A stretch of DNA of 34,822 nt from the NCBI GenBank assembly GCA_021735245.1, contig JAIPHJ010000019.1, positions 1-34,822 of the forward strand. The letters are read 5' to 3'. The stretch's first letter is position 1. The number at the start of each line of letters is the position of its first letter. A program made the translations under genes and the position numbers. Under the pieces are notes generated by a model, which searched no databases, had not been told where the DNA came from, and was given only the letters and a program-made list of their open reading frames with translations. This DNA comes from Candidatus Bipolaricaulota bacterium (GTDB lineage Bacteria; Bipolaricaulota; Bipolaricaulia; M55B111). This document shows, piece after piece, positions 215-34,691 of the stretch.

Positions 215-2893
215 ATGCCAGCTGAAAAACTAGATAAAATCTTCAATCCAGAATCTTTAGCCGTGATCGGAGCAAGCGAAAAGGAAGGCTCCGTAGGGGC
301 TACTCTGATGCAGAATATAGTCGAGGGCTTCGAAGGGGAAATATACCCCGTCAACATCGACAAGGAAACGGTAATGGATATCGAGGCGTTTTCCAGCGTC
401 AAAGATATCGAAAGCGAAGTAGACCTGGCCATTATAGCAACGCCGGCCAAGACGGTTCCGGATATAGTTGAGGAATGCGGGGAATCAGGAATTGAAGCGG
501 GTATCATAATTTCTGCAGGTTTTAGCGAAACGGGCAAAGAAGGAAAAAAACTGGAGAAAAAATTAGAATCCGCGAGAAAAAAACACGGAATGAGGCTTCT
601 CGGCCCTAATTGTCTGGGAACTATCAGACCAGGTCAAAACTTAAACCTTACGTTCCTCCGCAAGGATCCTTCACCCGGCAAAGTCGCTTTCTTATCTCAG
701 AGTGGCGCAATGGGATCGGCAATTCTTGACTGGTCGACAAAGGCAAAAGTCGGATTTAGTGCGTTCGTTTCCGTGGGGAACATGCTGGACATAGACTTCG
801 GCGACCTTATAGACTACTTTGGCCAGGATCCAAAGACAAGCAGTATAATAATGTACATGGAAGCAGTTAAACATGCGGAGAAGTTCATGAGCGCTGCAAG
901 GGGATTCGCAAGGACCAAACCGATTCTGGTAATAAAGGCGGGCAAGTATTCCAGAAGCGCCGAAGCCGTAGCTTCTCACACCGGTTCACTGGCCGGGGAA
1001 GATCAGATATACGACGCCGCATTCAAGCGAGTCGGGGTTACTCGGGTCTCTGACGTCGACGATCTATTCAGTAGCTCGGAAACGCTGAGCAAACAGAACC
1101 TCCCGGACGGGCCGAGAATGGCCGTAGTAACTAACGCCGGAGGACCCGGTATTATGACGACGGACGCAATACTCGACTCCGGTGGTGAACTAGCAGACTT
1201 CAGCCGGGAGACGGAGCAGGAATTAATCGAAACCCTCCCGAAACACGCCAGCGTAAAGAACCCCGTGGACGTTCTGGGTGACGCTGGATCGTCTCGCTAC
1301 AAGAACGCAATAAGAATATGTCATGAGGACGATAACGTCGACGGCTTAATAGTATTATACGCGCCTCAGGGAGAAGCCTCGGCCAAAGATGCTGCGGAAG
1401 CGGTGGCAGCTGTATCCAAGGATACGGAAAAGCCGATAGTTACGTCCTTTATGGGAGCGGGAGAAGTTGACCAGGGACGTCAAATCCTGCGAGAGGAGAA
1501 CGTCCCGACCAGACCGACGCCTGAGCAGGCGATAAGTGCCTACATGTACATGCATCGATACGCCAGAAACCTGGAACTGCTTTACGAAACTCCCGAGGAA
1601 CTTCCCGTAAATAACCAGCCACCCCACCACCACTTAAAGGCGATGGTAAGGAAGGTCCTGCGTTCAGAGAGGTCGACGCTGACCGAAGTCGAGTCAAAGA
1701 AATTTCTAGACACTTACGACATCCCAACCTCTTCCACCAAAGTCGCCGAATCAGCAAATCAGGCAGCCAACATAGCTTACGAAATCGGCTATCCGGTCGT
1801 ACTTAAGGTTTACTCTCACGACATAACCCACAAAACAGACGTGGGCGGTGTAGAACTTAATTTACAGAGCAAAGAAGAAATAAAAAAGGCTTACGAAAGG
1901 ATAGTATCACGAGCAAGAAATCACCGGCCTTCAGCCGAGATTCTCGGGGTAACAGTCCAGAAAATGTTTTCCAACGTGGACTACGAACTCATCCTCGGTT
2001 CAAAGAAGGATCCCCTGTTTGGCGCGTCGATCCTGTTTGGACGTGGTGGAACGGGTGTCGAACTTTACAAGGACACTGCAGCCGGCTTTCCTCCATTAAA
2101 CCAGGTCCTGGCCCACAGACTTATGGAAGATACGAAAGTTTACCAGTTACTCAAAGGATATAGAGGGAAAGAAGGAGCTGACATCAGGGAGCTGGAAAAG
2201 CAATTAATAAGGTTCTCTCAGTTAATAATCGACTTCCCCGAAATCAAAGAAATCGATATAAATCCTCTTGCAGTAATAGACGGGTCCTTCAAAGCCCTTG
2301 ACGCAAGGATGATCCTCGACGACAGCTTCAAAGATGAGAGAATCGAAAAAACTCACGAACACCTTGCTATCGAACCTTACCCGAGGCAGTACTCGGAAGA
2401 GTGGAGGCTGGACGACGGCAGGAACGTGACCCTGAGACCAATAAAACCGGAGGACGAACCGTTGGAATTCGAACTGTTCGATTCCTTCTCCGATAAGACG
2501 TGGCGTCAACGGTTCTTTGGCCCGAGAACGGAAGTTTCCCACAGGGAAATGACCCGTTACACGAATATCGATTACAGGCGAGAGATGGCAATAATCGGAC
2601 TTCTGGAAGAGAACGGGGAGAAGAAAATGATAGGCGTGGGCCGATTGATAATCGGTCCCGACCAGGATACCGGAGAGTACGCGGTCGTCGTAGGTGACCC
2701 CTGGCAGAGACTGGGTCTCGGCGAGAAGCTCACGGACTCGTTAATAGGAGTAGCCGAGGACAAAAACCTAAAAACCATTTACGCAACGATACTGAAAAAC
2801 AACAAGCATATGCTTCAACTAGCCCGTAAAATGGGATTTAAGGAGGAAGAGAGGGATTCAGATACCGTAAAAATGGTACTGAGGCTCAGATAG
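215..2893 (+). CDS. ADP-forming acyl-CoA synthetase fused to GNAT acetyltransferase (Pat-like)
   Basis: This is a four-part protein of 892 residues. Residues 1-130 are a CoA-binding Rossmann domain (VIGAS near the start). About 145-460 are the succinyl-CoA-ligase-like domains. About 485-700 form an ATP-grasp domain (ITHKTDVGGV). Residues 730-892 form a GNAT acetyltransferase with the acetyl-CoA loop WQRLGLG at 830-836. Related proteins are ADP-forming acetyl-CoA synthetases and, with the GNAT tail, the Pat/PatZ protein lysine acetyltransferases that shut off Acs. The phosphohistidine loop SHTGSLAG is present with His255, so the ligase half may still work, unlike enterobacterial Pat, which is regarded as ligase-dead. 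A GGGAGGGGG ribosome site precedes the ATG. acs lies next door, which suggests that this protein acetylates it. Family is secure. Whether it acts as ligase, acetyltransferase or both is open. Confidence 0.88.
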   Translation: MPAEKLDKIFNPESLAVIGASEKEGSVGATLMQNIVEGFEGEIYPVNIDKETVMDIEAFSSVKDIESEVDLAIIATPAKTVPDIVEECGESGIEAGIIISAGFSETGKEGKKLEKKLESARKKHGMRLLGPNCLGTIRPGQNLNLTFLRKDPSPGKVAFLSQSGAMGSAILDWSTKAKVGFSAFVSVGNMLDIDFGDLIDYFGQDPKTSSIIMYMEAVKHAEKFMSAARGFARTKPILVIKAGKYSRSAEAVASHTGSLAGEDQIYDAAFKRVGVTRVSDVDDLFSSSETLSKQNLPDGPRMAVVTNAGGPGIMTTDAILDSGGELADFSRETEQELIETLPKHASVKNPVDVLGDAGSSRYKNAIRICHEDDNVDGLIVLYAPQGEASAKDAAEAVAAVSKDTEKPIVTSFMGAGEVDQGRQILREENVPTRPTPEQAISAYMYMHRYARNLELLYETPEELPVNNQPPHHHLKAMVRKVLRSERSTLTEVESKKFLDTYDIPTSSTKVAESANQAANIAYEIGYPVVLKVYSHDITHKTDVGGVELNLQSKEEIKKAYERIVSRARNHRPSAEILGVTVQKMFSNVDYELILGSKKDPLFGASILFGRGGTGVELYKDTAAGFPPLNQVLAHRLMEDTKVYQLLKGYRGKEGADIRELEKQLIRFSQLIIDFPEIKEIDINPLAVIDGSFKALDARMILDDSFKDERIEKTHEHLAIEPYPRQYSEEWRLDDGRNVTLRPIKPEDEPLEFELFDSFSDKTWRQRFFGPRTEVSHREMTRYTNIDYRREMAIIGLLEENGEKKMIGVGRLIIGPDQDTGEYAVVVGDPWQRLGLGEKLTDSLIGVAEDKNLKTIYATILKNNKHMLQLARKMGFKEEERDSDTVKMVLRLR

Positions 2894-2955
2894 CTCGAGA
2901 ATCCTCTAAAGAAGAGGTGAGGTACGGGGGTTAGTTAACAATAATTCAGGGGTAA

Positions 2956-2988
2956 TAGAGGTGTAAACCAGTTTTAATTTCACCTCTA
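2956..2988 (+). terminator. Hairpin between the Pat-like gene and acs
   Basis: TAGAGGTG (2956-2963) pairs perfectly with CACCTCTA (2981-2988). Three more A-T pairs can form inside after a one-base bulge. Only a weak A/T tail follows, so this may be a leaky terminator or attenuator rather than a full stop. It sits 40 bases ahead of the acs start. Confidence 0.35.
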
Positions 2989-3027
2989 AAATACTATTTC
3001 CAAGTAAAACCACAGGAGGGAAATAAA

Positions 3028-4989
3028 TTGACTGAACCGAAAAAATGGGTCAAAGAAGACCCTGAAAAGGAAGACGTATTTTGGCCGACGGAGGAAATGA
3101 AAGAAAGAGCGTGGGTCTCGGACGAATCCATCTACGAAGAGGCGCTAGAGGATCCCCAGGCTTTCTGGGCTAAACATGCAAAAGAGGGCATCGACTGGTA
3201 CGAAGAATGGGACGAGACCTATTCAGAGGAGCCTTATAACTACGAATGGTTTGTTGGCGGAAAACTCAACCTAGCCTATAATGCTGTCGACAGGCACGTC
3301 GAAAACGGAAAAGGCGATAAGAACGCAATTATCTGGGAGCCAGAACCGACGGACGAAGAAACCGTACGGATGACCTATGCCGAACTCCAGGAAGAAGTTT
3401 CCAAATTCGCCAACGTCCTGGAAAGCTTCGGGGTCGAAAAGGGCGACAGAGTAGGAATCTACATGCCGATGATTCCCGAAGCCCTGATAGCAATGCTCGC
3501 TACGGCCCGGGTTGGAGCTGCTCACAGCGTAGTCTTTTCCGCATTTAGCCCCGATTCTCTAAAAGACAGGCTGGATGACGCAAATGCCAAAGTTCTGGTA
3601 ACGGCGGACGGCTATTACAGGCGAGGAAAACCGCTGAACCTGAAAAAGAACGCCAACCGAGGACTGCAAGGGAGTCCGGTTGAAGACGTCGTAACGGTCA
3701 AGAGGACGGGAAAAGACGTTGAAATGCAGGAAGGAAGAGACCACTGGTACCACGAAGTAATGGAGGGAGCCGATACCGAACACGAACCGGCAGTAATGAA
3801 CAGCAGCGACCTCGCATTCATCCTTTATACAAGCGGCACAACCGGTAAGCCCAAAGGGGTCATGCACCATGTCGGGGGATACGCCGTCCAGTCATACCTT
3901 ACGGCTAAATGGAACTTCAACCTTCGCGACGACGACGTATTCTGGTGTACCGCCGACGTAGGCTGGATAACCGGCCACACTTACATCAACTACGGACCCC
4001 TCCTAAACGGTGTTACCACGGTCGTCTACGAAGGCGCGCCTGACTATCCAGAGTACGACAGGCTCTGGCAGATAGTCGAGGACGAAGGAGTCACCGGATT
4101 CTATACGGCACCGACCGCTATCAGGATGTTCATCAAGCAAGGGACCGAATGGCCGGAAAAGCATGACCTTTCCAGCCTGAGAGTCCTCGGTACCGTTGGA
4201 GAACCAATAAACAAGGACGCCTGGATGTGGTACTTCGAGAATATAGGTGGAGGGCGCTGTCCCGTCGTAGACACATGGTGGCAGACTGAAACCGGCGCAA
4301 ACGTCATCAACGCACTACCGGGAATCGGACCCTTTATCCCGACTTTTGCCGGCAAACCGTTCCCGGGAATTGACGCCGAACTCCTCGATACCGAGGGAGA
4401 TCCCGTTGGAGTAGACGAAGGCGGGTATCTAACCATCAAATCGCCGTTCCCACCCAGTCTAATCAGGGGAGTTTACAAACGGCCGGAAAAGTTCAAAGAA
4501 GAGTACTGGAGTGAATACGGTCCGGGCTACTACTTCACTAGCGACGGAGCCAGAAAGGACGAGGACGGAAATATCAGAATCACCGGTCGACTGGACGACG
4601 TGATGAACGTCGCAGGACACAGACTGGCAACCGGTGAGGTAGAGAATGCCCTTGGCAAACACGAGTCAGTCGCGGAACCGGCAGTGGTCTCCCGACCGGA
4701 CGAGGTAAAGGGTGAGGTTCCCGTGGCGTTTGTCATGCTGGAAAAGGGTGCTGACATCGACGAGGAAACTTTACAGAATGAACTTATCCAGCTAGTAGAC
4801 GACACTATAGGACCGACGGCCCGTCCCGCAGACATAATCATCGCAGACGAAGTTCCCAAGACGAGATCCGGCAAGATAATGCGTAGAATACTAAAGAGCC
4901 TGGTAAGGGGCGAAGACGTCGGAGACCTCACTACCCTCAGAAATCCCGAAACCGTTGAAGAACTTCAGAAAAAGTTACAGGGAGAATAG
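3028..4989 (+). CDS. acs: Acetyl-CoA synthetase (AMP-forming)
   Basis: Acs converts acetate, ATP and CoA to acetyl-CoA, AMP and PPi. The 653 residues match the usual size of about 650. Visible motifs are the adenylate-forming signature [12 protein letters not shown] near residue 267, WWQTETG in the middle, and the C-terminal [11 protein letters not shown] with Lys616. That lysine corresponds to the one whose acetylation inactivates Acs in Salmonella, where Pat does it. A Pat-like protein is encoded directly upstream and an acetate transporter directly downstream (35-base gap to the chosen satP start), so uptake, activation and control of acetate lie together. The start is TTG, chosen because AGGAGGG stands 5 bases upstream and the N-terminus then matches the family. 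The PPi made here could be removed by the class I pyrophosphatase encoded at 23.7-24.2 kb. Confidence 0.95.
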
Positions 4990-5024
4990 TCCAATTTACA
5001 CAAGGATAAACGGAGTGATTGAAC

Positions 5025-5591
5025 TTGGAAATTAATGAAGACGTTGCCAACCCCGCACCTCTGGGATTAGGAGGGTTCGCCCTCTCAACATTCATCTTAA
5101 ACCTGGTCAACGCCGGCCTGGTCGCCGAGGGATCGCTCGGTATCGTAATGCCGATGGCGATCGCCTACGGAGGTCTGGCTCAACTTCTGGCCGGGATGTG
5201 GGAATTCAGGCGCAATAATATTTTTGGAGCCACGGCGTTCTCGTCTTTTGGCGCGTTCTGGATGGGCCTGGCTTCTTTCTTCTTCCTGACCTGGGCAGGG
5301 TTAATTAATAACGTGCCCAGGGAAGGTCTCGCGATCGCGCTAATTGCCTGGGGAATATTTACCTTGTACATGACGATAGCGTCCCTGCGCGAACCGAAAG
5401 CTATTATGTGGATATTTATAACCCTGACAGTTCTATTCTTCCTGCTTGCCTGGGGAGAATTTAATCCAACTGTCGCCAGGATAGCTGGTTACGAAGGGCT
5501 CTTATGTGCATCAATAGCCTGGTATTCATCTGCCGGTGTCATCATAAATAAGATGTTCGGAAAAACCGTTCTCCCTCTGGGTGAACGTTAA
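5025..5591 (+). CDS. satP: Acetate/succinate transporter, GPR1/FUN34/YaaH (SatP) family
   Basis: A 188-residue inner-membrane protein with six hydrophobic helices. Near the N-terminus it carries NPAPLGLGGF, the family signature that precedes the first helix. The family moves acetate or acetate plus proton across the membrane. It follows acs closely, so it probably supplies acetate to Acs or exports it. A TTG at 5019 is in frame but only one base from the GGAGTG ribosome site. The TTG at 5025 has proper spacing, so I start there. A strong terminator follows, closing the acetate module. Which carboxylate it carries, and in which direction, cannot be read from sequence. Confidence 0.9.
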   Translation: MEINEDVANPAPLGLGGFALSTFILNLVNAGLVAEGSLGIVMPMAIAYGGLAQLLAGMWEFRRNNIFGATAFSSFGAFWMGLASFFFLTWAGLINNVPREGLAIALIAWGIFTLYMTIASLREPKAIMWIFITLTVLFFLLAWGEFNPTVARIAGYEGLLCASIAWYSSAGVIINKMFGKTVLPLGER

Positions 5592-9446: not shown

Positions 9447-9830
9447 TTAAGCTTCTTCTTTTTTTAATTCTTCGTATTCGGATTCCCCCATTAGAGTCTC
9501 TAGTTCCGATTCATCTTCCATATCAAGTTTTACGAGCCAGCCTGACTCAAACGGAGATTTGTTTATCTTCTCCGGTTCGCCCTCGAGCGATTCATTGACT
9601 TCCGTTACTTTCCCGCTGATCGGAGCCTCAACGTCCGATACTGATTTTACGGATTCGATAACTACCATTTCCTCACCTTTTGAGTACTCTTCCCCCTGGT
9701 CAGGTAACTCGACAAAGACAATATCACCCAGTTCCTTCTGAGCAAAGTCGGTTATGCCAACTGTAACTTTACGACCTTCGACCCTGATCCAATCGTGATT
9801 TTCAGTATATTTAACCTCTCCTCCGGCCAT
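9447..9830 (-). CDS. gcvH: Glycine cleavage system H protein
   Basis: GcvH carries the lipoyl arm that takes the aminomethyl group from the P-protein to the T-protein. The 127 residues show the usual N-terminus (YTENHDWIRVEG), the lipoylation motif VIESVKSVSDV with Lys62, and the downstream EPEKINKSPFESGWL. AGGAGG lies 4 bases before the ATG. In most genomes gcvH sits with gcvT and gcvP. Here it stands alone, some 20 kb from gcvPA-gcvPB and facing a terminator, so it is probably expressed separately. The bases 9831-9968 between it and the GlmU-like gene form a divergent control region. Confidence 0.95.
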   Translation of the reverse strand: MAGGEVKYTENHDWIRVEGRKVTVGITDFAQKELGDIVFVELPDQGEEYSKGEEMVVIESVKSVSDVEAPISGKVTEVNESLEGEPEKINKSPFESGWLVKLDMEDESELETLMGESEYEELKKEEA

Positions 9831-25274: not shown

Positions 25275-25312
25275 GAAAATAAAAAACATCCCCTCAGCTA
25301 GAAGGGATGTTT
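25275..25312 (-). terminator. Terminator of the one-carbon operon
   Basis: On the minus strand AAACATCCC (25312-25304) pairs with GGGATGTTT (25292-25284) around an 11-base loop, followed by TTTATTTTC. It lies about 155 bases past the folD stop. The bases between (25313-25467) hold no gene or motif that I recognise. Confidence 0.85.
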
Positions 25313-25467: not shown

Positions 25468-26349
25468 TTAACCCTGGAGTAACTTCGCGGCCTTAACCGT
25501 ATTCGACATTATCAGGGTAGTAGTCATCGGTCCTACTCCCCCTGGAACCGGAGTTATCCGTGATGCTTTACCTTTCACGTTCTCGTAATCAACGTCCCCG
25601 GTAATGCCGTTTTCCGTCTCGTTTATGCCCACGTCCACCACCACGGTTCCTTCAGAAATCATGTCCGAAGTTATGAAGTTCTTTTTACCCACCGAAGAAC
25701 AAACAATATCCGCCCGTCGGGTCTTTTCGGCCAGGTCGCTCACCTGATATTCGCAAAGAGTAACAGTCGCATAGCCTTCCCGCAAAGCGAGCAGCGAAAG
25801 TGGCAGCCCAACAGCCCCACCACCAACCACGAGAAATTCCTTACCGGCAAGATCGATATCCGAATACTTCAGAATCTCCATAACCGCGTAGGGGGTCGCC
25901 GGAAGCAGGACCTCCGGATCATCCTTCAAATCTTCGTAGCTCGCTCTGACAGCCCCTCCCGACAGCAGTTTTCCACTATTTATAGGGTTTATACAGTCCA
26001 CGTCCTTATTCGGGTTTATCTCGGCTCTCAGTTTTCCGATATCCAGACCCTCCGGAAGCGGCAACTCTATAAATAGCCCATGAACGGATGGATCACCGTT
26101 CAATTCCCTAACCTTTCCTACTAGTTCTTCTTCCGAAGTGTCTCCGTCCAGCTTGATCCCTCTGTACTCGATCCCTAGATTCTCGGCCAGTTTCTTCTTC
26201 GTCCTGTAGTACACCCTGGCTCCCGGGTCGTCACCTACGAGGACGGGAGCGATGGCGGGCTGCACTCCCTCTTTCTTCAGATCTTCCACTTCGCCTTTCA
26301 AATCCTCTCTGTAAGTTTCAGCTATCCGATTACCGTCTATCTTTGACAT
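25468..26349 (-). CDS. folD: FolD-type methylene-THF dehydrogenase/cyclohydrolase with unusual active and cofactor sites
   Basis: FolD interconverts 5,10-methylene-, methenyl- and 10-formyl-THF. The 293 residues align along the whole family with Tyr47, Lys51 and Asp118 kept. Several landmarks differ. The usual QLPLP is ELPLP, so the catalytic Gln (98 in E. coli) is Glu95. The NADP loop GRSxxVG is GGGAVG (176-181), one residue shorter and without Arg-Ser. The HSRT segment after the second Rossmann strand reads EYQV with Glu200. KDVDGF is KDVDCI and PCTPxG is PATPYA. Loss of the 2'-phosphate contacts and an acid after strand two suggest NAD rather than NADP; Glu95 may lower cyclohydrolase activity. 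AGGAGGG precedes the ATG. Last gene of the C1 operon. Confidence 0.9.
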   Translation of the reverse strand: MSKIDGNRIAETYREDLKGEVEDLKKEGVQPAIAPVLVGDDPGARVYYRTKKKLAENLGIEYRGIKLDGDTSEEELVGKVRELNGDPSVHGLFIELPLPEGLDIGKLRAEINPNKDVDCINPINSGKLLSGGAVRASYEDLKDDPEVLLPATPYAVMEILKYSDIDLAGKEFLVVGGGAVGLPLSLLALREGYATVTLCEYQVSDLAEKTRRADIVCSSVGKKNFITSDMISEGTVVVDVGINETENGITGDVDYENVKGKASRITPVPGGVGPMTTTLIMSNTVKAAKLLQG

Positions 26350-26363
26350 CGTCCCTCCTGGCG

Positions 26364-26933
26364 TTACACGTTGTTTTCCTCGCTGATTAAAGTTAAGGCC
26401 TCGTCCCTGGCCGCCTTATCCGTCTTAAATTTGCCTCTTATCGCAGAAGTAACCATTTTGGAGCCCGGCTTTTTAACTCCCCTTATCGTCATGCATAAGT
26501 GCTCCGCTCGTACCTTAACCAGGACTCCGTAAGGCTCGATTTCCTCCATCAGGACGTCGGCCACCTGAGATGTCAGTCTTTCCTGAATCTGTGGCCTGCT
26601 GGACGCGACCTCCAGGGCTCGCGCCAGCTTGCTCGCCCCAACTATTCTGCCCCCTTTGGGCATGTACACGATACTTGCCTTCCCTAAGATCGGAAGCAGG
26701 TGGTGCTCGCACAGGGATTGGAATGGGATGTCGTCGAGCACCACCATTTCTTTATAATCTTCCTGGAAAAACGTCGAAACTTCTTTTCCCGGATCGGTAC
26801 CTATCCCGGAACAGATCTCTTCCATCATCCGAGCTACTCTATCCGGGGTTTCCTTTAACCCTGACCTTTGGAGGTCTTCCCCTATTCCTTCCAGTATTAG
26901 TTTTGTTCCCTCTGTTATCTTTTCTTTGTCCAT
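26364..26933 (-). CDS. folE: GTP cyclohydrolase I
   Basis: First step of tetrahydrofolate synthesis, GTP to dihydroneopterin triphosphate. The 189 residues have the zinc ligands Cys75, His78 and Cys147 (in CEHHLLP and EHLCM), plus GASKLARALEVASSRPQIQERLT. It lies between fhs and folD with gaps of 23 and 14 bases, so supply of the carrier is tied to the C1 enzymes. The ribosome site CTGGAG is good. Confidence 0.96.
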   Translation of the reverse strand: MDKEKITEGTKLILEGIGEDLQRSGLKETPDRVARMMEEICSGIGTDPGKEVSTFFQEDYKEMVVLDDIPFQSLCEHHLLPILGKASIVYMPKGGRIVGASKLARALEVASSRPQIQERLTSQVADVLMEEIEPYGVLVKVRAEHLCMTIRGVKKPGSKMVTSAIRGKFKTDKAARDEALTLISEENNV

Positions 26934-26956
26934 TGATTCTCCAGTATAGTTTTATA

Positions 26957-28690
26957 TTAGAATAAGCCTTCTACGTTCCCGTCTTCGTCGATATCTACGT
27001 CTTCGTAGGCAGGTTCGGACGGAAGGCCCGGCATGGTACTCATCTCTCCGCACAGCGGATAGACGAAACCTGCACCCACGCTCGCCCTTACCTCACGAAC
27101 CGGCAGGGTAAAGCCAGTCGGCACGCCCTTCTTCTTCGGGTCGTGCGAGAGTGACAGATGTGTCTTTGCCATGCAGATCGGGAGATCGCCAAAGCCGGAT
27201 TCTTCGTAATCCTTTATTTGCTTTTCCGCTTTGTTCGTGTATTCGACACCGTCGGCACCGTAGATTTCCTTTGCGATGGTTTCTATCTTCTCTTTGATCG
27301 ATTTATCCAGGTCGTAGAGGAACTCGAAGTCGGACTCTGCTTCACTTGCCTCTACAGTGGCTTCTGCAAGATCTACAGCTCCCGCTCCACCATCGGTAAA
27401 GTGGTTTGATTCGACTGCGTCAAATGCGCCCGCTTCGAGTGCTTTTTCTTTGACCAGCTCTACTTCCTTGTCCGTGTCGGTGTGGAACCTGTTTACGGCA
27501 ACTACCACTGGAACGCCGAACTTCTGGGCGATCTCAATATTTTTAGCAAGGTTTTCCGTACCTTTCTCGAGCAGATCAAGGTTTTCTTCTCTGTACACCG
27601 GGTCAAGTTCCTTTCCTGCCACGACTTCCGGGCCTCCACCGTGAGTCTTAAGCGCTCTCACAGTGGCCACAAGTACGACTGCGTCGGGTACGTTGCCGCT
27701 GTACCGACATTTGATATTAAAGAACTTCTCCATGCCGATATCAGCGCCAAAGCCGGATTCCGTAACCACGTAATCTGCTATTTTCAGGCCGACCATGTCA
27801 GCCAGGTTGGAGCTATTTCCGTGAGCTATATTTGCAAACGGACCGGCGTGGACAAATGCGGGCTGGCCTTCTAGAGTCTGAAGCAGGTTGGGTTTTATGG
27901 TATCCTTCATAAGTACTGTCGCCGCCCCGGCTGCCCCCAGATCTTCTACCGTAACCGGTTCGCCGTCCCAGGAGTACCCGAGAACGATCTTACCGATTCT
28001 TTTCCTGAGGTCCTGCAGACCGTCCGTAAGACCGAGAATTGCCATTAGCTCAGAAGCGACGGTTATGTCGAAGGCGCTTTCTCTCGGGTAACCGTCCCAC
28101 TTACCACCGAGTCCGACGTTTATATTTCGCATAGCCCTGTCATTAATGTCCACTACTCTATTCCACGTTATGGAGTATGGATTGATATTTAACTTCTCTT
28201 TGCCTTTTTCCTTCCAGGCTTCGTCCGAGTAGTTACGCTCGTGCATCAGACGGGCGTCAAGCGCGGCCGCTATCAAGTTGTGAGCCGCTCCTATGGCGTG
28301 GATATCTCCAGTAAGGTGGAGGTTGAAGTCCTCCATTGGTATTACCTGAGAGTAACCTCCTCCAGCTGCTCCACCTTTTATCCCGAAAGTAGGTCCCTGA
28401 GAGGGCTGGCGAATGGCGGTCATAACCTTCTTTCCAATCTTCCCCAGAGCCTGGGTCAGCCCGATATTAGTCGTTGTCTTTCCTTCGCCCAGGGGCGTAG
28501 GCTGGATCGCCGTCACGTCGATATACTTTCCATCGGGTTCGTTCTTTCGATCCTCGTAAGCATCTAACTTGACTTTTGCTTTGTAATCGCCGTACAGCTC
28601 TAGCTCGTCCCTGTTAAGTCCTACTTTTTTCGCAATTTCTTTTATTGGCTTCAGGTCCGCCGCTTGAGCAATTTCAATATCACTTTTCAT
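26957..28690 (-). CDS. fhs: Formate-tetrahydrofolate ligase
   Basis: It joins formate to THF with ATP, giving 10-formyl-THF, or runs in reverse to make ATP and formate. It is a key enzyme of the methyl branch of the Wood-Ljungdahl path and of C1 oxidation. The 577 residues are about 20 more than usual, mainly from a charged insert near [16 protein letters not shown]. Motifs: [11 protein letters not shown] at 64-74, [22 protein letters not shown], the [13 protein letters not shown] region, and [11 protein letters not shown] near the end. AGGAGG precedes the ATG. Confidence 0.97.
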
Positions 28691-28786
28691 GAAATATACC
28701 TCCTGATTGAATTAAAAATTGACCGAGATCCTAATTTTTTAAGCTCGTTCTCAAATTGCCACCACGAGTACCAAGCTGAAATTGGA

Positions 28787-29572
28787 CTAATTGCCCCTTT
28801 TGTATTTAAGGTAGTTCAGACAATTCTTATCCACACCCAGAAGAGACTCTGCAGCTTTCAGGGTATCCATCATGGGCTTATCGGTCGGATCGATCAGAGC
28901 AGCGTCAAGACCCGCCTCCAGCAACATAGCAAAGACGGTTCTGTTGATAAGTGCTCTGTCCGGAAGGCCGAAGGACATATTACTTAGCCCGATATTTGTT
29001 TTTACCCCGAATTTCTCCTTAATTTCCCTGACCGAGTCTATTACGTACTGACCCTGCTCCTGGTTGCTCCCTATCGTCATGGCTATAACGTCTACATAAA
29101 GCCGATCCTCCTCTATTCCCAGGCTATCGCATTTTTCCAGCAGCGCCTCCGTCTCGTTTAACCTGTCCTCTACCGTCTCGGGCATTCCCTCTTCTCCCAT
29201 CGCTAAACCGATTATCTCGGCGTCGGAATCGGCCGCTACTTCTCGGGCCCTTGCTTTGTCTTCTTCGTTGCTTATGGAGTTAACTACAGGCCTGTTTTCG
29301 ACCTTCTTCAGGGCAAACTCCAGCACTTCCGGGTCCGGCGTATCTATACATATTCTGACGTCATCGACTTCGTCCTCGACTAGATCGATGAGCCAATCCA
29401 TGTCGGACTGCTCGTCTTCCATCGATTCCCCGGCATTGAGGTCAACTACATCCGCCCCGGACTCCGATTGTTCCCGGGCTAGCTTTCGAATTAGTTCTTC
29501 GTCCTTTTCCTTAAGAGCCTGCTTAACTTCGTCCCTCGTGGAATTGATTAATTCACCAATTGTCAAAAACAT
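28787..29572 (-). CDS. Methyltetrahydrofolate:corrinoid protein methyltransferase (AcsE/MtgA-like)
   Basis: A pterin-binding TIM-barrel methyltransferase of 261 residues, the size of AcsE. It shows IGELINSTRDE at the start, the pterin-site GADVVDLNAG (to residue 48), CIDTPD with Asp77, VDVIAMT with Asp161, and GLSNMSFGLPDRALINRT with Asn198, which matches the catalytic Asn of AcsE. Such enzymes move methyl between N5 of THF and Co(I) of a corrinoid protein. Here the corrinoid protein of the same operon, not the two-subunit CFeSP, is the visible partner, which favours an MtgA-type role (methyl from a methylated compound to THF). The direction is not decidable. It lies between gcvPB and fhs. 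A GGAGG ribosome site is present. Confidence 0.9.
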   Translation of the reverse strand: MFLTIGELINSTRDEVKQALKEKDEELIRKLAREQSESGADVVDLNAGESMEDEQSDMDWLIDLVEDEVDDVRICIDTPDPEVLEFALKKVENRPVVNSISNEEDKARAREVAADSDAEIIGLAMGEEGMPETVEDRLNETEALLEKCDSLGIEEDRLYVDVIAMTIGSNQEQGQYVIDSVREIKEKFGVKTNIGLSNMSFGLPDRALINRTVFAMLLEAGLDAALIDPTDKPMMDTLKAAESLLGVDKNCLNYLKYKRGN

Positions 29573-29688
29573 AGATCTTTACCTCCAGATTTCAGGTTTT
29601 CCTTTCAGGAAGTTCCTCTTTCTCTAGCGTCCTACCGCTCAGACGTCAAACGGCGGAATTATTATTTAAGTCGATAAGAAATTTTAGC

Positions 29689-31143
29689 CTACTCCTCGTC
29701 TTCAGTTCTCCATCTTAAAACTGGTTCGCGGGCGGCTTTTGTCTCATCCAGCCTGCCCACCGGGGTGGTCTTCGGAGCTTCGTGGAGCAATTCGGGATCC
29801 TCCGAAGCCTCCTCCGCGATACTAAGCATTGCTTCTGCAAATTCATCCAGTGCTTCTTTGGATTCCGTTTCAGTTGGTTCAACCATTAACGCCTCTTTAA
29901 CGATTAACGGGAAGTAGACGGTCGGCGGGTGGAAACCGTAGTCCAGGAGTCTCTTGGCGATATCCACCGTTTTGACCCCCTCTCCTACCCCGCTTCCGCT
30001 GAGCACGAACTCGTGTTTACAGAGTCCTTCGTAGGCAACTCTGTACGCGCCCTTCAGCCTCTCTTTTAGATAGTTTGCATTGAGCACGGCGTTCCCGCTA
30101 ACCTCTCTTAAACCTTCGTCCCCCAGGGCTTTAATATAACTGTAAGCTCTAACCATTATTCCAAACGGACCGGAAAAACTATTGACCTTACCTATAGACC
30201 GCGACCTGTCGTAAGCAAATTCGTAGCTATCCTCGTTTTTCTCAACAGTCGGTACGGGCAGGTAAGGAACCAGTTCCTGTTTAACACCGACAGGTCCTGC
30301 CCCCGGGCCACCACCCCCGTGTGGAGTGCTAAACGTCTTGTGTAAATTGAAGTGGGTAATATCCATACCGATATCTCCGGGCCTGACCCTGCCCAGGAAG
30401 GCGTTGAGGTTAGCACCGTCGAAGTAACACAAACCTCCGGCGTCGTGAACGACCTCCGCTATTTCGGTAATATCGGTTTCAAAAATACCTAGCGTATTGG
30501 GGACGGTTAGCATAATTCCCGCCGTAGCATCGCCAACTGCACTTCTGAGCTGCTCCAGATCGACGGTTCCTTCTTCGTTCGATTCTATCTCCACCGCGTC
30601 GAAACCAGCTACCGCCGCCGAGGCCGGATTTGTGCCGTGGGAAGAGTCGGGAAGCAATATTTCCCTTCGCCGGTCCAGCTCACCGTTGTCTTCGTGATAC
30701 TTTCGAATCATGAGCATACCCGTGAGCTCCCCGTGAGCACCGGCTGCCGGCTGAAGCGTAATACCGGCCATTCCGGAGATACTTTTCAGCATCTCTCCAA
30801 GCTCGTACATCAACTCAAGGTTGCCCTGAACCAGGTCTTCCGAGGCCAGCGGATGGTGGTTCTGAAATCGATGATCCTTCGCCAGATCCTCCATGGGCTT
30901 CGGGTTGTGCTTCATGGTGCAGGAGCCAAGTGGATATAACCCGTCATCCACGCCGTAGTTCTTCTTCGAGAGTTCGGTATAATGCCGAATAAGCTCGGAC
31001 TGGCTGACCTCCGGAAGGCCTGGATCGTCCGACCTCAATAATTTGTCGTCGAGTTCCTCCTCCGGGGCTTCTTCCGCAAAGGACTCCTCTTTAAAAGAAG
31101 TGCCCGTCTTACCTTTCTCGCTTTTATCGAAAATCGTGGGCAT
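29689..31143 (-). CDS. gcvPB: Glycine dehydrogenase (decarboxylating) subunit 2
   Basis: C-terminal half of the P-protein, carrying the pyridoxal phosphate. The 484 residues include SSHGTNPASAAVAGF and the PLP site FNLHKTFSTPHGGGGPG with Lys269, and end with the typical PVGRLDETKAAREPVLRW. With GcvPA it decarboxylates glycine and loads the aminomethyl group on GcvH, or the reverse. Start ATG 31143, two bases after the gcvPA stop and after GAGGTGG. An open frame extends further upstream but overlaps gcvPA and has no family similarity. Confidence 0.96.
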   Translation of the reverse strand: MPTIFDKSEKGKTGTSFKEESFAEEAPEEELDDKLLRSDDPGLPEVSQSELIRHYTELSKKNYGVDDGLYPLGSCTMKHNPKPMEDLAKDHRFQNHHPLASEDLVQGNLELMYELGEMLKSISGMAGITLQPAAGAHGELTGMLMIRKYHEDNGELDRRREILLPDSSHGTNPASAAVAGFDAVEIESNEEGTVDLEQLRSAVGDATAGIMLTVPNTLGIFETDITEIAEVVHDAGGLCYFDGANLNAFLGRVRPGDIGMDITHFNLHKTFSTPHGGGGPGAGPVGVKQELVPYLPVPTVEKNEDSYEFAYDRSRSIGKVNSFSGPFGIMVRAYSYIKALGDEGLREVSGNAVLNANYLKERLKGAYRVAYEGLCKHEFVLSGSGVGEGVKTVDIAKRLLDYGFHPPTVYFPLIVKEALMVEPTETESKEALDEFAEAMLSIAEEASEDPELLHEAPKTTPVGRLDETKAAREPVLRWRTEDEE

Positions 31144-31145
31144 CT

Positions 31146-32489
31146 CTATTCCACCTCGCTCCTCATCGACGCGACGAAATGGTCTAATTCGTCCTTCTTC
31201 ACTTTTTCCGTAACTGCAACCAGCAGGATGTCTTCCCACCCCGCCCCCTTCAGGTTGTCGGGGTGAAGAAGATCCACCTCATTCTCCTTCATCTTCTCCC
31301 AGATATCGCAGGAGTCACCCGGTACCTCGATCGCAAACTCGTTGAAGAACGGCTGGTTCCTGGCCAGTTCAATCCCGGGCAAATCCGTAAGTTCGTCCGC
31401 AAGGTAATGTGCTTTGTCCCAGTTAATTTTTGCCAGGGATTTGAGTCCGGAGGGACCCAGAGACGCAAGGTACACGGTAGCCGCCAGGGCGTTCAACGCC
31501 TGATTCGTACAGATATTTGACGTAGCTCGTTCCCTTTTTATGTGTTGCTCCCGCGTCTGCAGAGCCATTACGTACCCTTCACTCCCCTCTCGATCAAGGG
31601 TCTTACCGGAAACCCTGCCCGGCAGGTAGCGCAGGTAATCCTTCCTGGTGGCAAAAAGCCCCAATAACGGACCTCCGAAATTCATTGGATTGCCCAGAGG
31701 TTGACCTTCTCCCACCACTATGTCAGCTCCAAAGTTCCCCGGTGGCTCAAGTAAACCCAGAGATATCGGATTAGAACTCACGATGAGGAACGAATCGTCC
31801 AGCGCTTCCTTCAGCCCACTGAGGTCCTCGACAATTCCCAGATAATTGGGGGATTGGACAACCAGCCCCGAAATCGAATCTTCGCTGGACAATATCTCGT
31901 CTAATTGAATCCTGTCGATCCGTCCGTCCCTGGTACCGAGCTCGATAACCTGCTTCTCTTCCAGCGGCAGGTAAGTTTCAATAACGTCCCTGTAGCGAGG
32001 GTTCAGGGTCTCGCTTACGATAATTTTGTCTCTACCAAGATACTCCTGAGCCATCAATACGGCCTCGGCTGCCGCCGAACCTCCGTCGTACATGGAGGAA
32101 TTTGCAATATCCATGCCGGTTAATTCAGAAATTTCCGTCTGGAACTCGAACATCCAGGTTAGAGTACCCTGGCTAATTTCGGCCTGATAGGGAGTATAAG
32201 CGGAATAGAATTCGGATCTCCCGGTAACGTGGGAAACTATGGAAGGAATGAAATGATCGTAAAGCCCGGCGCCAATTAGGCTTAATCGGTCGCCAGGCTT
32301 TTTGTTACGATCAGCTATTGCTTTGACGGACTCCTTTAATTCAAGCTCCGTCTCTCCTTTACCGTCTACTAAATCTTTTTCTACCTTCAGGTCGTCCGGG
32401 ATATCGGAAAACAATTCCTCAAGGGAATCGACGCCGATATCCTCCAGCATTTCCCTCCTGTCACTGTCCGTATTGGGGATAAAATCCAT
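31146..32489 (-). CDS. gcvPA: Glycine dehydrogenase (decarboxylating) subunit 1
   Basis: N-terminal half of the split P-protein, 447 residues. Motifs: PNTDSDRREMLEDIG at the start, FYSAYTPYQAEISQGTLTWMFEFQT, SMYDGGSAAAEA, NFGGPLLGLFATR and ATSNICTNQALNALAATVYL. Split GcvPA/GcvPB is common in Bacillota and Archaea. It begins 14 bases after the corrinoid-protein stop and leads into gcvPB with two bases between. Neither gcvT nor gcvH nor lpd is in this operon. Confidence 0.96.
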   Translation of the reverse strand: MDFIPNTDSDRREMLEDIGVDSLEELFSDIPDDLKVEKDLVDGKGETELELKESVKAIADRNKKPGDRLSLIGAGLYDHFIPSIVSHVTGRSEFYSAYTPYQAEISQGTLTWMFEFQTEISELTGMDIANSSMYDGGSAAAEAVLMAQEYLGRDKIIVSETLNPRYRDVIETYLPLEEKQVIELGTRDGRIDRIQLDEILSSEDSISGLVVQSPNYLGIVEDLSGLKEALDDSFLIVSSNPISLGLLEPPGNFGADIVVGEGQPLGNPMNFGGPLLGLFATRKDYLRYLPGRVSGKTLDREGSEGYVMALQTREQHIKRERATSNICTNQALNALAATVYLASLGPSGLKSLAKINWDKAHYLADELTDLPGIELARNQPFFNEFAIEVPGDSCDIWEKMKENEVDLLHPDNLKGAGWEDILLVAVTEKVKKDELDHFVASMRSEVE

Positions 32490-32503
32490 GAGGGATCCTG
32501 AAG

Positions 32504-33139
32504 TTAACTGGTTAATTTCTTAACCAGCTTGGATGCCGCCGCCGCGTCTGCCGCGTACCCGTCCGCGCCAATTTCATCCGCGAAGTCCTGAGAAACTGGT
32601 GCGCCACCAATGGCCACTTTTACCTGATCCCTGATACCTTCTTCCTCGAGCGCCTCAATAACTTCGGGCATATGAGTCATGGTGGTCGTCAGCAGGGCAG
32701 ACATTCCCAGTACGTTTGCGTTGTTTTCCTTGATTGCCTCTATAAATTCCTCTGCGGGGGTCTCCGCACCAAGGTTGATGACCTCAAACCCAGCACCTTC
32801 AAGCATCATGCTAACCAGATTCTGGCCGATGTCGTGCAGGTCCCCTTCTACGGTCCCCATTACTACGATGCCGGCTGGCTCGACTCCGGATTCAGCCAGG
32901 AGAGGACGCAACAATTTCATGGCCCCTTTCATCGCCTCGGCGGAAAGCAACATCTCCGGCACGTACCTGTCACCACTTTCGTATTCCTCTCCGACCTCGT
33001 CCATCGCGGGAACCAGGCCTTCGTTCAGAATTTTTTCCGGATCAAGGCCTTCGTCTATTGCCTTTTCAGTCAGCTCCACCGTCTTATCTTCGTCCATGTC
33101 GAACACAGCTTGACCTAATTCTTCCAGTAAGTCGCTCAT
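32504..33139 (-). CDS. Methyl-carrier corrinoid protein (MtgC/MttC-like)
   Basis: The 211 residues hold a helical cap (about 1-85, with LVPAMDEVGEEYESGDRYVPEML) and a B12-binding Rossmann domain (about 88-211). The domain carries the base-off motif DLHDIG (Asp100, His102, Gly105), whose His binds cobalt, then NLGAETPAEEF, SALLTTTM and IGGAPVSQDFADEIGADGY. Proteins of this form accept methyl from a substrate-specific methyltransferase (amines, betaine, methoxy compounds) and pass it on, here probably to the THF enzyme encoded at 28.8-29.6 kb. The substrate methyltransferase and the reductive activator are not in the window. First gene of the operon, with GAGGAGG upstream. Confidence 0.92.
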   Translation of the reverse strand: MSDLLEELGQAVFDMDEDKTVELTEKAIDEGLDPEKILNEGLVPAMDEVGEEYESGDRYVPEMLLSAEAMKGAMKLLRPLLAESGVEPAGIVVMGTVEGDLHDIGQNLVSMMLEGAGFEVINLGAETPAEEFIEAIKENNANVLGMSALLTTTMTHMPEVIEALEEEGIRDQVKVAIGGAPVSQDFADEIGADGYAADAAAASKLVKKLTS

Positions 33140-33181: not shown

Positions 33182-33210
33182 ATTATATCTCTTGCAACTG
33201 CGGTTACAAG
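33182..33210 (-). promoter_or_regulatory. Promoter with overlapping dyad for the one-carbon operon
   Basis: Read on the minus strand: TTGTAA (33209-33204), a 16-base spacer, TATAAT (33187-33182). A near-perfect dyad, CTTGTAAC-CGCA-GTTGCAAG (33210-33191, one mismatch), covers the -35 and most of the spacer, the usual place for a repressor site. About 35 bases of leader separate it from the ATG. Confidence 0.65.
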
Positions 33211-33211
33211 C

Positions 33212-33236
33212 AAAAAGGTGGGATAAATTATCCCAC
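33212..33236 (-). terminator. Terminator just upstream of the one-carbon promoter
   Basis: On the minus strand GTGGGAT (33236-33230) pairs with ATCCCAC (33224-33218) over a 5-base loop, then CTTTTTG follows. It would isolate the C1 operon from transcription coming from the binding-protein genes, or end an unseen transcript in the 33.2-33.6 kb gap. Confidence 0.75.
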
Positions 33237-33665: not shown

Positions 33666-34568
33666 CTAACTTCGAAGGGACGAAATACCTTCAAGCCAAT
33701 AATTTACCAACTCCGGGTGGGCATTAACAAACTTAGTTACCGCATTCCGCTTCCTTTTATCGAATAAGCGAGTCAATTCGTTCACCTGGTCTATAGAGAG
33801 ATGAAAACGGCTTAAGAACCGGGTGACCCTATTCGGGTACTTCTCCATCAGCCCCTCTCGAGCAAGTAGATGCACTACTTTTTCGTCGGTCAGTTCGGTA
33901 ATGAATCTTGTATTATAAATGCTAAACGGGACACTCGGGCGTTTAAGGGTGATTAATACCCATTCTTGGCTCCGAATAGCTCGGTTAAGCTCGGAAACTG
34001 CGACCATTTCATCTATCTTCACCAGTTCGTAACTGCTTAATCCTTTTACTGTATCCATAATTATACGGGAACTCTCCAGGAGTGAACTCTCCGAAGCTAA
34101 ACCAATTATTTCTTTATTCAGGTTGTTCATGACCTCCTGCCTAGTAAGGTCCTCTAGCGAAGCCAGTTTAGTTTCCGGCACGTAATCCGGTACGGCCCAG
34201 CCTGCCACTACGTCCTCGTACACCGGCCCCAGGTTGCACAATTTGCCGGCAAAGTCGTTCCACGTCCTACTTTCCGGTCGAGGAAGTTTCATACCTAGAA
34301 ATAGGTCAGCATCACCGTCCGAAGTCTTTTTTAAACCGACTTGCGCGTACTGTATTTTTTTATTTACCTTCCAGTCTAATTCTTCTTCCAGAAGGTGTGT
34401 AATCAACTCGGCTACGGGCAGGTATTCCGTTTCCGGAACTACGTAAAAATCTATTGCATCTTCCTGGGCATTTGTCTTTGGGGGGGATAAAAAAACCATC
34501 ACCGTGCCAAGGGTCAAAAAAACGAAAAGGAAGAGAGCCTTTTTCATTAAATCAAGTTGGAGATTCAT
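33666..34568 (-). CDS. Divergent OpuAC-type (glycine-betaine-like) substrate-binding protein
   Basis: A 300-residue periplasmic-type binding protein. The signal peptide (LFLFVFLTLGTVMVF to TNAQ) has no lipobox Cys. The fold is that of OpuAC: QVGLKKTSDGDADLFLGMKLPR, WNDFAGKLCNLGPVYEDVVAGWAVPDYV, a hinge and second lobe, and the closing KFVNAHPELVNYWLEG. Positions where betaine binders have aromatic-cage residues look changed: the usual NW near the start is VPET, and the usual Trp-x-Pro-His-Trp segment is LKRPSVPF. Its ligand may therefore differ. Start ATG 34568 follows AAAGGAGG; an in-frame ATG at 34595 precedes that site. It lies after a second binding protein. No permease or ATPase gene is in view. 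Confidence 0.8.
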   Translation of the reverse strand: MNLQLDLMKKALFLFVFLTLGTVMVFLSPPKTNAQEDAIDFYVVPETEYLPVAELITHLLEEELDWKVNKKIQYAQVGLKKTSDGDADLFLGMKLPRPESRTWNDFAGKLCNLGPVYEDVVAGWAVPDYVPETKLASLEDLTRQEVMNNLNKEIIGLASESSLLESSRIIMDTVKGLSSYELVKIDEMVAVSELNRAIRSQEWVLITLKRPSVPFSIYNTRFITELTDEKVVHLLAREGLMEKYPNRVTRFLSRFHLSIDQVNELTRLFDKRKRNAVTKFVNAHPELVNYWLEGISSLRS

Positions 34569-34593
34569 ATAATCCTCCTTTGATGAGGACCGC

Positions 34594-34691
34594 AAATTTA
34601 GGCCATTACAATCGTTCGAGCGGCCCTATTAAGGAAAGGGGTGAGGAACCCCGTCCCCACCCCTTAAAAGAACGAATGTTGGCCTAGATTT
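34594..34691. repeat. Large imperfect inverted repeat with inner hairpin between the two binding-protein genes
   Basis: The outer arms 34594-34617 and 34670-34691 pair over about 20 positions (AAATxTAGGCCA, then ACA and TCGTTC), broken by one mismatch in each half and a two-base bulge. Inside, AAGGGGTG (34636-34643) pairs with CACCCCTT (34658-34665). The whole could fold as one long branched hairpin in the minus-strand transcript between the genes, ending about 25 bases before the start of the second. It may act as a leaky terminator, RNA-stability element or mobile-repeat remnant. Confidence 0.6.

Follow-up and report, generated by a model that had tools for sequence, protein, structure and literature searches.

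A conserved operon of halophilic Candidatus Bipolaricaulota unites a corrinoid methyl carrier with glycine dehydrogenase and is probably a one-carbon hub

We analysed a 34,822-nucleotide stretch of DNA from a Candidatus Bipolaricaulota bacterium (contig JAIPHJ010000019.1), hereafter called the window, which corresponds to contig C66 of an assembly of 1.95 Mb, 83 contigs and 85% completeness. The window carries an operon of seven minus-strand genes, encoding a corrinoid protein, GcvPA, GcvPB, a methyltransferase of the MtgA/AcsE type, Fhs, FolE and FolD; these families had been named in the initial annotation, and both the open reading frames and the family searches bear them out. Specifically, the first gene (32504..33139) encodes an MtgC-like corrinoid protein of 211 amino acids (aa), the methyl carrier, with PF02310 and PF02607 over cut-off. 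It is followed by gcvPA (31146..32489; glycine dehydrogenase (decarboxylating) subunit 1, 447 aa; NF001696 at 556.9 bits against a cut-off of 364, and PF02347), gcvPB (29689..31143; subunit 2, 484 aa; NF003346 at 749 bits, cut-off 441) and the gene for an MtgA-like methylcorrinoid:tetrahydrofolate (THF) methyltransferase, MeTr (28787..29572; 261 aa; NF005719 at 265.6 bits, cut-off 259, and PF00809). The last three genes are fhs, for formate-THF ligase (26957..28690; 577 aa; PF01268 at 877 bits), folE, for GTP cyclohydrolase I (26364..26933; 189 aa; TIGR00063 at 213.6 bits, cut-off 181.6), and folD, for methylene-THF dehydrogenase/cyclohydrolase (25468..26349; 293 aa; PF00763 and PF02882). For gcvPB, comparison with relatives makes the start at 31143 more likely than that at 31239. 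From the carrier to folD, the intergenic gaps measure 14, 2, 116, 96, 23 and 14 bases.

The carrier has B12-binding_2 and B12-binding domains and the D-x-H-x-x-G motif, here DLHDIG, which is intact, as are NLHK in GcvPB and GLSN in the methyltransferase; we take all three to be functional motifs, the lysine of NLHK presumably being the one that holds pyridoxal phosphate. The operon proteins are acidic (pI 4.05 to 5.75), and acidic proteins are typical of salt-in halophiles.

Conservation was assessed in the genome of the window and five relatives (G001 to G005), that is, six genomes of the order in two genera, with all counts limited by contig ends. The gcvPA gene directly follows the carrier gene in six of six genomes; gcvPB and the MeTr gene come next in all five whose contigs extend to there, and fhs-folE-folD then follow in all four that reach so far. 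Because this order is kept in the six genomes as far as the contigs reach, the operon is more than a chance adjacency. Directly upstream of it, G002, G003 and G004 carry two MttB genes, OpuAA, OpuAB and two OpuAC genes, the transporter being by family an ABC system of the Opu/choline type (betaine/choline); G005 has a divergent 253-aa frame instead. In the window, the next gene upstream (33666..34595, minus strand) encodes an OpuAC-type ABC substrate-binding protein (PF04069 over cut-off, TIGR03414 below cut-off) and, judged by comparison with these relatives, is the end of the same MttB-OpuA unit. A contig search with the methyltransferase of the window returned 11 loci. Four were Ca. Bipolaricaulota contigs at 88-95% identity (isolates GSL_GSL3510_1, GSL_GSL3510_5, GSL_CB2_2 and Tobar18m-G13), and another came from a fifth member of that phylum (50%); the others belonged to Dehalococcoidia (two, 50-53%) and gut Bacillota (four, 34-35%). 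The lineage is thus that of Ca. Bipolaricaulota, and not of the Halanaerobiales or Natranaerobiales to which the DNA had initially been ascribed.

Outside the order the arrangement is different. Of 100 genomes of the phylum, 25 have a carrier homologue (E <= 1e-20), with one match in each of the six genomes of the order. We compared 25 loci around carrier homologues from other families (3.3-19.5 kb, DNA-level search), which contained, besides the carrier in all 25, MeTr in 10, RACo in 12, fhs in 7, metF and metV in 6, folD in 3, folE in 1 and MttB in 11; gcvPA and gcvPB were present in none of the 25. In six of these Bipolaricaulota loci (L083, L085, L091, L092, L093 and L096), the carrier is 62-74% identical to that of the window (for L096 over 113 aa only), fhs lies beside it, MeTr is present where the contig reaches and folD appears in L091 and L096, but RACo and MetV/MetF occupy the place of gcvPA/gcvPB, with no gcvP within the stretches read; MetV and MetF of L091 and MetF of L083 were assigned by Pfam. 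In the carrier tree the six proteins of the order form one group (98/99); its placement as sister to 12 further carriers from Bipolaricaulota has weak support (82/47). In conclusion, only in this halophilic order was the carrier seen joined with gcvPA/gcvPB.

Just upstream of the corrinoid gene, promoter scan and alignment of the six genomes revealed a promoter-like site, TTGTAA-16-TATAAT (33182..33209, minus strand), of which TATAAT is kept in all six genomes and TTGTAA in five. Adjoining the -35 element on its upstream side is a 19-bp palindrome, GTGGGATAAATTATCCCAC (33218..33236), found by pattern scan and alignment, which shows 0, 0, 0, 1, 1 and 2 mismatches across the six genomes. No second copy at <=3 mismatches was found in own sequence (238,650 bases scanned), the chance expectation at this threshold being 0.13 matches for the window alone. 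The palindrome is therefore a probable operator, predicted to have a single target, and the regulon could not be extended because no further copy turned up in the scanned sequence. A reading of 33236-33218 as the terminator of the upstream unit was rejected: since the T-run is lacking in three of the six genomes (G001, G004 and G005) while the palindrome persists, we read the latter as an operator. A GntR-FCD regulator encoded upstream in G002 is only a candidate for the protein that might bind there. Because G005 keeps both promoter and palindrome despite its different upstream gene, the unit begins at the carrier.

After folD, a terminator scan of the own sequence alone gave an intrinsic-terminator-like hairpin (25284..25312, minus strand). 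Region-wide, promoter-like matches numbered 6 against 8.1 expected from shuffles, and terminator-like matches 5 against 10.1, that is, no excess; the weight of the promoter therefore rests on its conservation in six of six genomes, because scan matches are not above chance. In alignments, the two larger gaps within the operon show probable ribosome-binding sites, together with a single conserved block that is unexplained, and the promoter scan gave no site within these gaps. The block, CGTGGTGG, lies in the MeTr-fhs gap (28691-28786) and is invariant in four aligned genomes, the remainder of the gap being variable; it has no Rfam match. Riboswitch control was considered and discarded, as no Rfam family, riboswitch or other, passed its gathering threshold in the window, L034, L046 or L078-L082, and L045 (contig C40) alone produced hits at that level, namely two tRNAs. 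With the limit relaxed to E = 1, a fungal small nucleolar RNA was matched once in the operon region, below threshold and on the opposite strand, which we took as chance.

The carrier appears to serve many partners. PF02607 matches once in the own assembly, at the carrier of the window, whereas PF06253 (MTTB) matches 11 times; 10 of these matches are near full length and the other is a fragment at a contig edge, this count being for the own genome only. All 10 near-complete MttB proteins match TIGR02369 below its curated cut-off. In Eubacterium limosum, several MttB proteins reportedly share MtqC/MtqA. In the neighbourhood of the operon, non-pyrrolysine MttB is represented by the two upstream genes of G002, G003 and G004. 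One protein per upstream position was compared with the PDB (the one nearer the transporter from G003, the outer one from G002), and in both cases 2qne and 9yce rank first, the latter named glycine betaine methyltransferase, with trimethylamine enzymes standing lower. Transporter type and PDB ranking only suggest betaine as a methyl donor. The carrier itself lies below the curated cut-offs of NF047995/NF047996 and hence is not assignable as betaine-specific; it matches NF047996 and TIGR02370, in the latter case only just below cut-off. The single PF02607 match also means that no cobalamin-type MetH was detected in the assembly, which may be a gap of the metagenome-assembled genome (MAG).

The MttB genes of the own genome (contigs C28, C31, C51, C35, C49, C73, C46 and C44) have differing neighbours: a proline racemase and an OpuAC-type binding protein on C73, glutamine synthetase and an iron-dependent alcohol dehydrogenase (Fe-ADH) on C31, a non-Pyl MtmB-type PF05369 protein and a class III aminotransferase on C46, and a PLP enzyme of Cys/Met metabolism on C49. 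Such variety hints at many different methylated substrates.

The methyltransferase that shares the operon with the carrier is the second corrinoid:THF methyltransferase of the genome beside the AcsE of the acetyl-CoA synthase (ACS) cluster. Its best PDB match is 4o0q (deposited as DHPS), which we take to be MtgA of Desulfitobacterium hafniense, followed by AcsE 2yci. NF005719 is passed by the own AcsE too (270.7) and does not separate MeTr from AcsE; similarly, in the MeTr tree the own AcsE forms a very long branch near the group of the window (91/87), and the tree fails to separate MtgA from AcsE.

On the glycine side, the initial annotation had regarded gcvT, gcvH and lpd as absent. This is true of the operon and wrong for the genome, in which the P, H, T and L proteins are all encoded: P in the operon, H in the window, T as a fusion and L at a contig end. 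Specifically, gcvH, for the lipoyl carrier of the glycine cleavage system, lies at 9447..9830 on the minus strand (PF01597, E 5e-44) with an ESVK motif that presumably carries the lipoyl lysine, and a dihydrolipoyl dehydrogenase above the TIGR01350 cut-off is found at the edge of contig C50. GcvT (PF01571) was found in two long frames, on contigs C11 and C40, both being serine hydroxymethyltransferase (SHMT) fused to two GcvT-type stretches, about 1,150-1,180 aa in length. The first of these stretches is much weaker and without the VIDD motif, which is present in both own copies and which we assume to have its role in GcvT; its two aspartates are invariant across all nine aligned fusions, that of G003 included. 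Alignment confirmed the fusion: six genomes from other families have it at 46-50% identity, and a G003 fragment is 84% identical; our literature search found no published description of it. The genes do not form a gcv operon but lie at two places on C66, on C40/C11 and on C50; the glycine cleavage system is therefore complete in the own genome but scattered.

The two fusion frames map to L045:386-3931 (C40) and L046:2-3472 (C11). Within the phylum, long PF01571 frames (about 1,000-1,330 aa, shorter at contig breaks) are frequent in families f1, f2, f6 and f9, and stand-alone GcvT of about 360-390 aa occurs in families f3, f4, f5 and f7. An AlphaFold2 model of the fusion had a mean predicted local distance difference test score (pLDDT) of 57.9, too low for structure search, and was not used.

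The machinery for acetyl-CoA synthesis lies apart from the operon. Contig C32 (L034) carries the row cooC, acsB, acsC, RACo, cooC, acsD, acsE, cooS, in which AcsB and RACo were assigned by family and AcsE by NF005719; acsC, acsD, cooC and cooS are presumed from position and likeness. The own genome thus holds a carbon monoxide dehydrogenase/acetyl-CoA synthase (CODH/ACS) with its corrinoid iron-sulfur protein (CFeSP) and AcsE, and both this cluster and the MttB family (10 near-complete genes), which the initial annotation thought worth seeking in the genome, are present. The same annotation held that a dedicated CFeSP and a normal gcvT-lpd cluster elsewhere, together with a gene order unique to one strain, would reduce the operon to chance adjacency. 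The outcome is mixed: the CFeSP cluster with its own AcsE exists and T and L do lie elsewhere, but the gene order is not confined to one strain. A GrdB-type subunit of glycine/sarcosine/betaine reductase, considered as a route for the demethylated product, was matched in none of the six genomes, the control set being likewise silent. In the window, genes in a row at positions 215-5591 are presumed, from sequence likeness only, to encode an ADP-forming acyl-CoA synthetase ending in a GNAT part, an acetyl-CoA synthetase and a small transporter of the acetate type, a set that would fit acetate handling.

Taken together, the gene content, its order and conservation, the partner enzymes and the shared promoter and predicted operator support a reading of the operon as a one-carbon hub for osmolyte methyls and glycine in a halophilic acetogen-type bacterium, to which we assign a probability of roughly 0.6. 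The substrates, the direction and the electron balance of this hub we infer as follows. Many MttB-family enzymes, acting on betaine, proline betaine and similar substrates, would load methyls onto the one MtgC-like carrier, whose cobalt RACo would hold reduced, and the MtgA-like enzyme would hand the methyl to THF. Methyl-THF would then go to acetyl-CoA via AcsE/CFeSP/CODH-ACS or, alternatively, yield formate and ATP on oxidation via MetF, FolD and Fhs. GcvPA/PB, together with the GcvH, SHMT-GcvT and Lpd that are encoded outside the operon, would cleave the glycine remaining after betaine demethylation; the CH2-THF so formed would join the FolD/Fhs branch towards formate and ATP, and FolE would support the folate pool. 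The more modest proposal of the initial annotation, namely passage of osmolyte methyls to THF, oxidation with ATP gain through Fhs and exchange of one-carbon units with glycine, is consistent with all this, and finds support in the upstream MttB and transporter genes and in the 10 MttB genes against one carrier.

The arrangement suggests that these bacteria may dismantle betaine completely. In a full dismutation, which we put forward tentatively and as rather doubtful, the three methyls would become acetyl-CoA precursors and glycine would be oxidised by GcvP, FolD, Fhs and a presumed formate dehydrogenase. By our own arithmetic, C, H, O and N all balance in the net reaction betaine + CO2 + 2 H2O -> 3 acetate + NH3; oxidation of glycine to 2 CO2 would yield six electrons, as many as three reductions of CO2 to CO need, so that no methyl oxidation would be required, and one promoter would couple methyl uptake and glycine oxidation.

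Several points weigh against this interpretation of the operon. The contig of the window stops before any MttB or OpuAA/OpuAB gene. Methylene-THF reductase (MTHFR) gave no match in the own 85% complete assembly; as it is present in five of the five other genomes of the order, its absence is probably a MAG gap. The idea that, lacking MTHFR, the organism needs glycine as electron donor was dropped in view of the same five relatives, and an electron balance with glycine as donor is possible, not forced. The GcvT family was not found in four of the six genomes (G001, G002, G004 and G005; 70-84% complete). Because the fusion sits on short contigs, which may drop out of MAGs (5.4 kb, running off the end, and 15 kb in the own genome; a 3.7 kb contig that it fills in G003), we read these misses, without proof, as assembly loss. 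As for known physiology, the available parts of the sources state that betaine fermentation by Acetobacterium woodii stops after one methyl (PMC12674515) and that strain DCMF stops at sarcosine, which it reduces (PMC9768040). Finally, the accessible text of a study of Turkish geothermal sites reports a hypersaline Bipolaricaulota clade without the Wood-Ljungdahl pathway (PMC9992828), which may not be this order; because of that clade, the pathway is not general among the salt-loving members of the phylum.

The direction of glycine cleavage is not fixed by operon content, which bears on the hub reading as well as on an assimilatory one, in which the cleavage system would run in reverse (reductive glycine pathway) and the methyls, once oxidised to CH2-THF, would combine with CO2 and ammonia into glycine and then serine via SHMT-GcvT for biomass. 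A T domain and SHMT in one polypeptide would suit the hand-over of CH2-THF, MTHFR occurs in all five relatives, and Brockarchaeota have been proposed, in the portion of PMC8065059 available, to do likewise with MttB, the THF branch and the glycine cleavage system. We nevertheless hold such a use to be unlikely, given a CODH/ACS cluster from which acetyl-CoA is directly makeable and an own assembly in which MTHFR was not found. It could also be argued that carrier, GcvP, MeTr, Fhs, FolE and FolD share a promoter merely through folate, without a joint pathway: folE and folD are general folate genes, and outside the order, too, the carrier lies near fhs, folD, folE or metF/metV (7, 3, 1 and 6 of the 25 loci). 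What makes this quite improbable is that gene order, promoter and palindrome are kept in all six genomes of two genera, and that MttB and transporter genes lie directly upstream in G002-G004, the three relatives with sufficient contig, G005 differing by its divergent frame.

In the boldest version, carrier and MeTr would replace GcvT and accept the glycine carbon directly. The two genes do flank gcvPA/gcvPB, and the GcvT domain went undetected in four of the six genomes, but a VIDD-bearing GcvT domain occurs twice in the own genome with both aspartates invariant in the nine fusions, the short contigs of the fusion (5.4, 15 and 3.7 kb) are easily lost from MAGs, and gcvPA/gcvPB accompany none of the 25 outside carriers. 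Moreover, we know of no precedent for aminomethyl transfer to cobalt. This direct role of the corrinoid pair in glycine turnover, also raised initially, thus goes unsupported, with H, T and L in the genome and RACo (12), MeTr (10) and MetF/MetV (6) rather than gcvP at the outside loci, and we regard it as scarcely credible.

The hub reading can be set beside known systems, in each case as far as the available parts of the sources go. The MtgB-MtgC-MtgA glycine betaine system of D. hafniense, A. woodii and 'Ca. Formimonas warabiya' (PMC9768040) is alike in having MttB, a carrier of about 210 aa, an MtgA-type enzyme and a betaine transporter as a module, and the cluster of strain DCMF likewise has several MttB. 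Within its nine genes, however, the part of PMC9768040 at hand lists no gcvP, fhs or folD, and the cluster ends with sarcosine reductase; in the operon described here gcvPA/gcvPB separate the carrier from MeTr, and a single carrier faces about ten MttB. The E. limosum pair MtqC/MtqA (PMC8604678) is similarly a carrier and a THF methyltransferase working with MttB-family enzymes that have different substrates, but belongs to a different phylum, with no glycine dehydrogenase mentioned alongside in the text available. The gcvT-gcvH-gcvPA-gcvPB-fhs cluster of Peptoclostridium acidaminophilum (PMC12674515) resembles the operon in placing gcvP beside fhs, the glycine carbon being oxidised via THF, but includes the T and H genes, and the accessible portion mentions no corrinoid carrier or MeTr with it. 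Brockarchaeota (PMC8065059) combine MttB, THF and glycine cleavage in one lineage; they differ in that, within the available text, no corrinoid:THF methyltransferase is identified, the cleavage parts come from different MAGs and glycine is formed, not degraded.

Elements of the hub have been proposed separately: a member of the phylum from anaerobic digesters was suggested to turn glycine into formate with gain of ATP (PMC6092417), and Dehalobacteriia to combine the Wood-Ljungdahl pathway with a glycine cleavage system (PMC10327494). Bipolaricaulia of Great Salt Lake sediment are predicted to be H2/CO2 (hydrogenotrophic) acetogens with MetVF beside HysAB (PMC11287216, in the part available), and neither glycine nor betaine occurs in the main text of that paper; relatives of the window carry isolate labels beginning with GSL and may not be the operational taxonomic units (OTUs) of that study. 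No description of gcvP inside such an operon was found in titles, abstract openings and selected passages of open-licence PMC papers, which is weak evidence. Both halves of the operon are of known kinds; what is new is that, in Bipolaricaulota, they are joined under one promoter and arranged around a single carrier.

Betaine is a main osmolyte in brine. In a genome that also encodes an acetyl-CoA synthase, an operon joining the uptake of osmolyte methyls with glycine oxidation would widen the role expected of these organisms to include osmolyte scavenging, and would offer a case of one corrinoid hub facing about ten methyltransferases, with a conserved predicted operator. If the dismutation were true, the halophilic Bipolaricaulota, now viewed as hydrogenotrophic acetogens, would also be osmolyte eaters.

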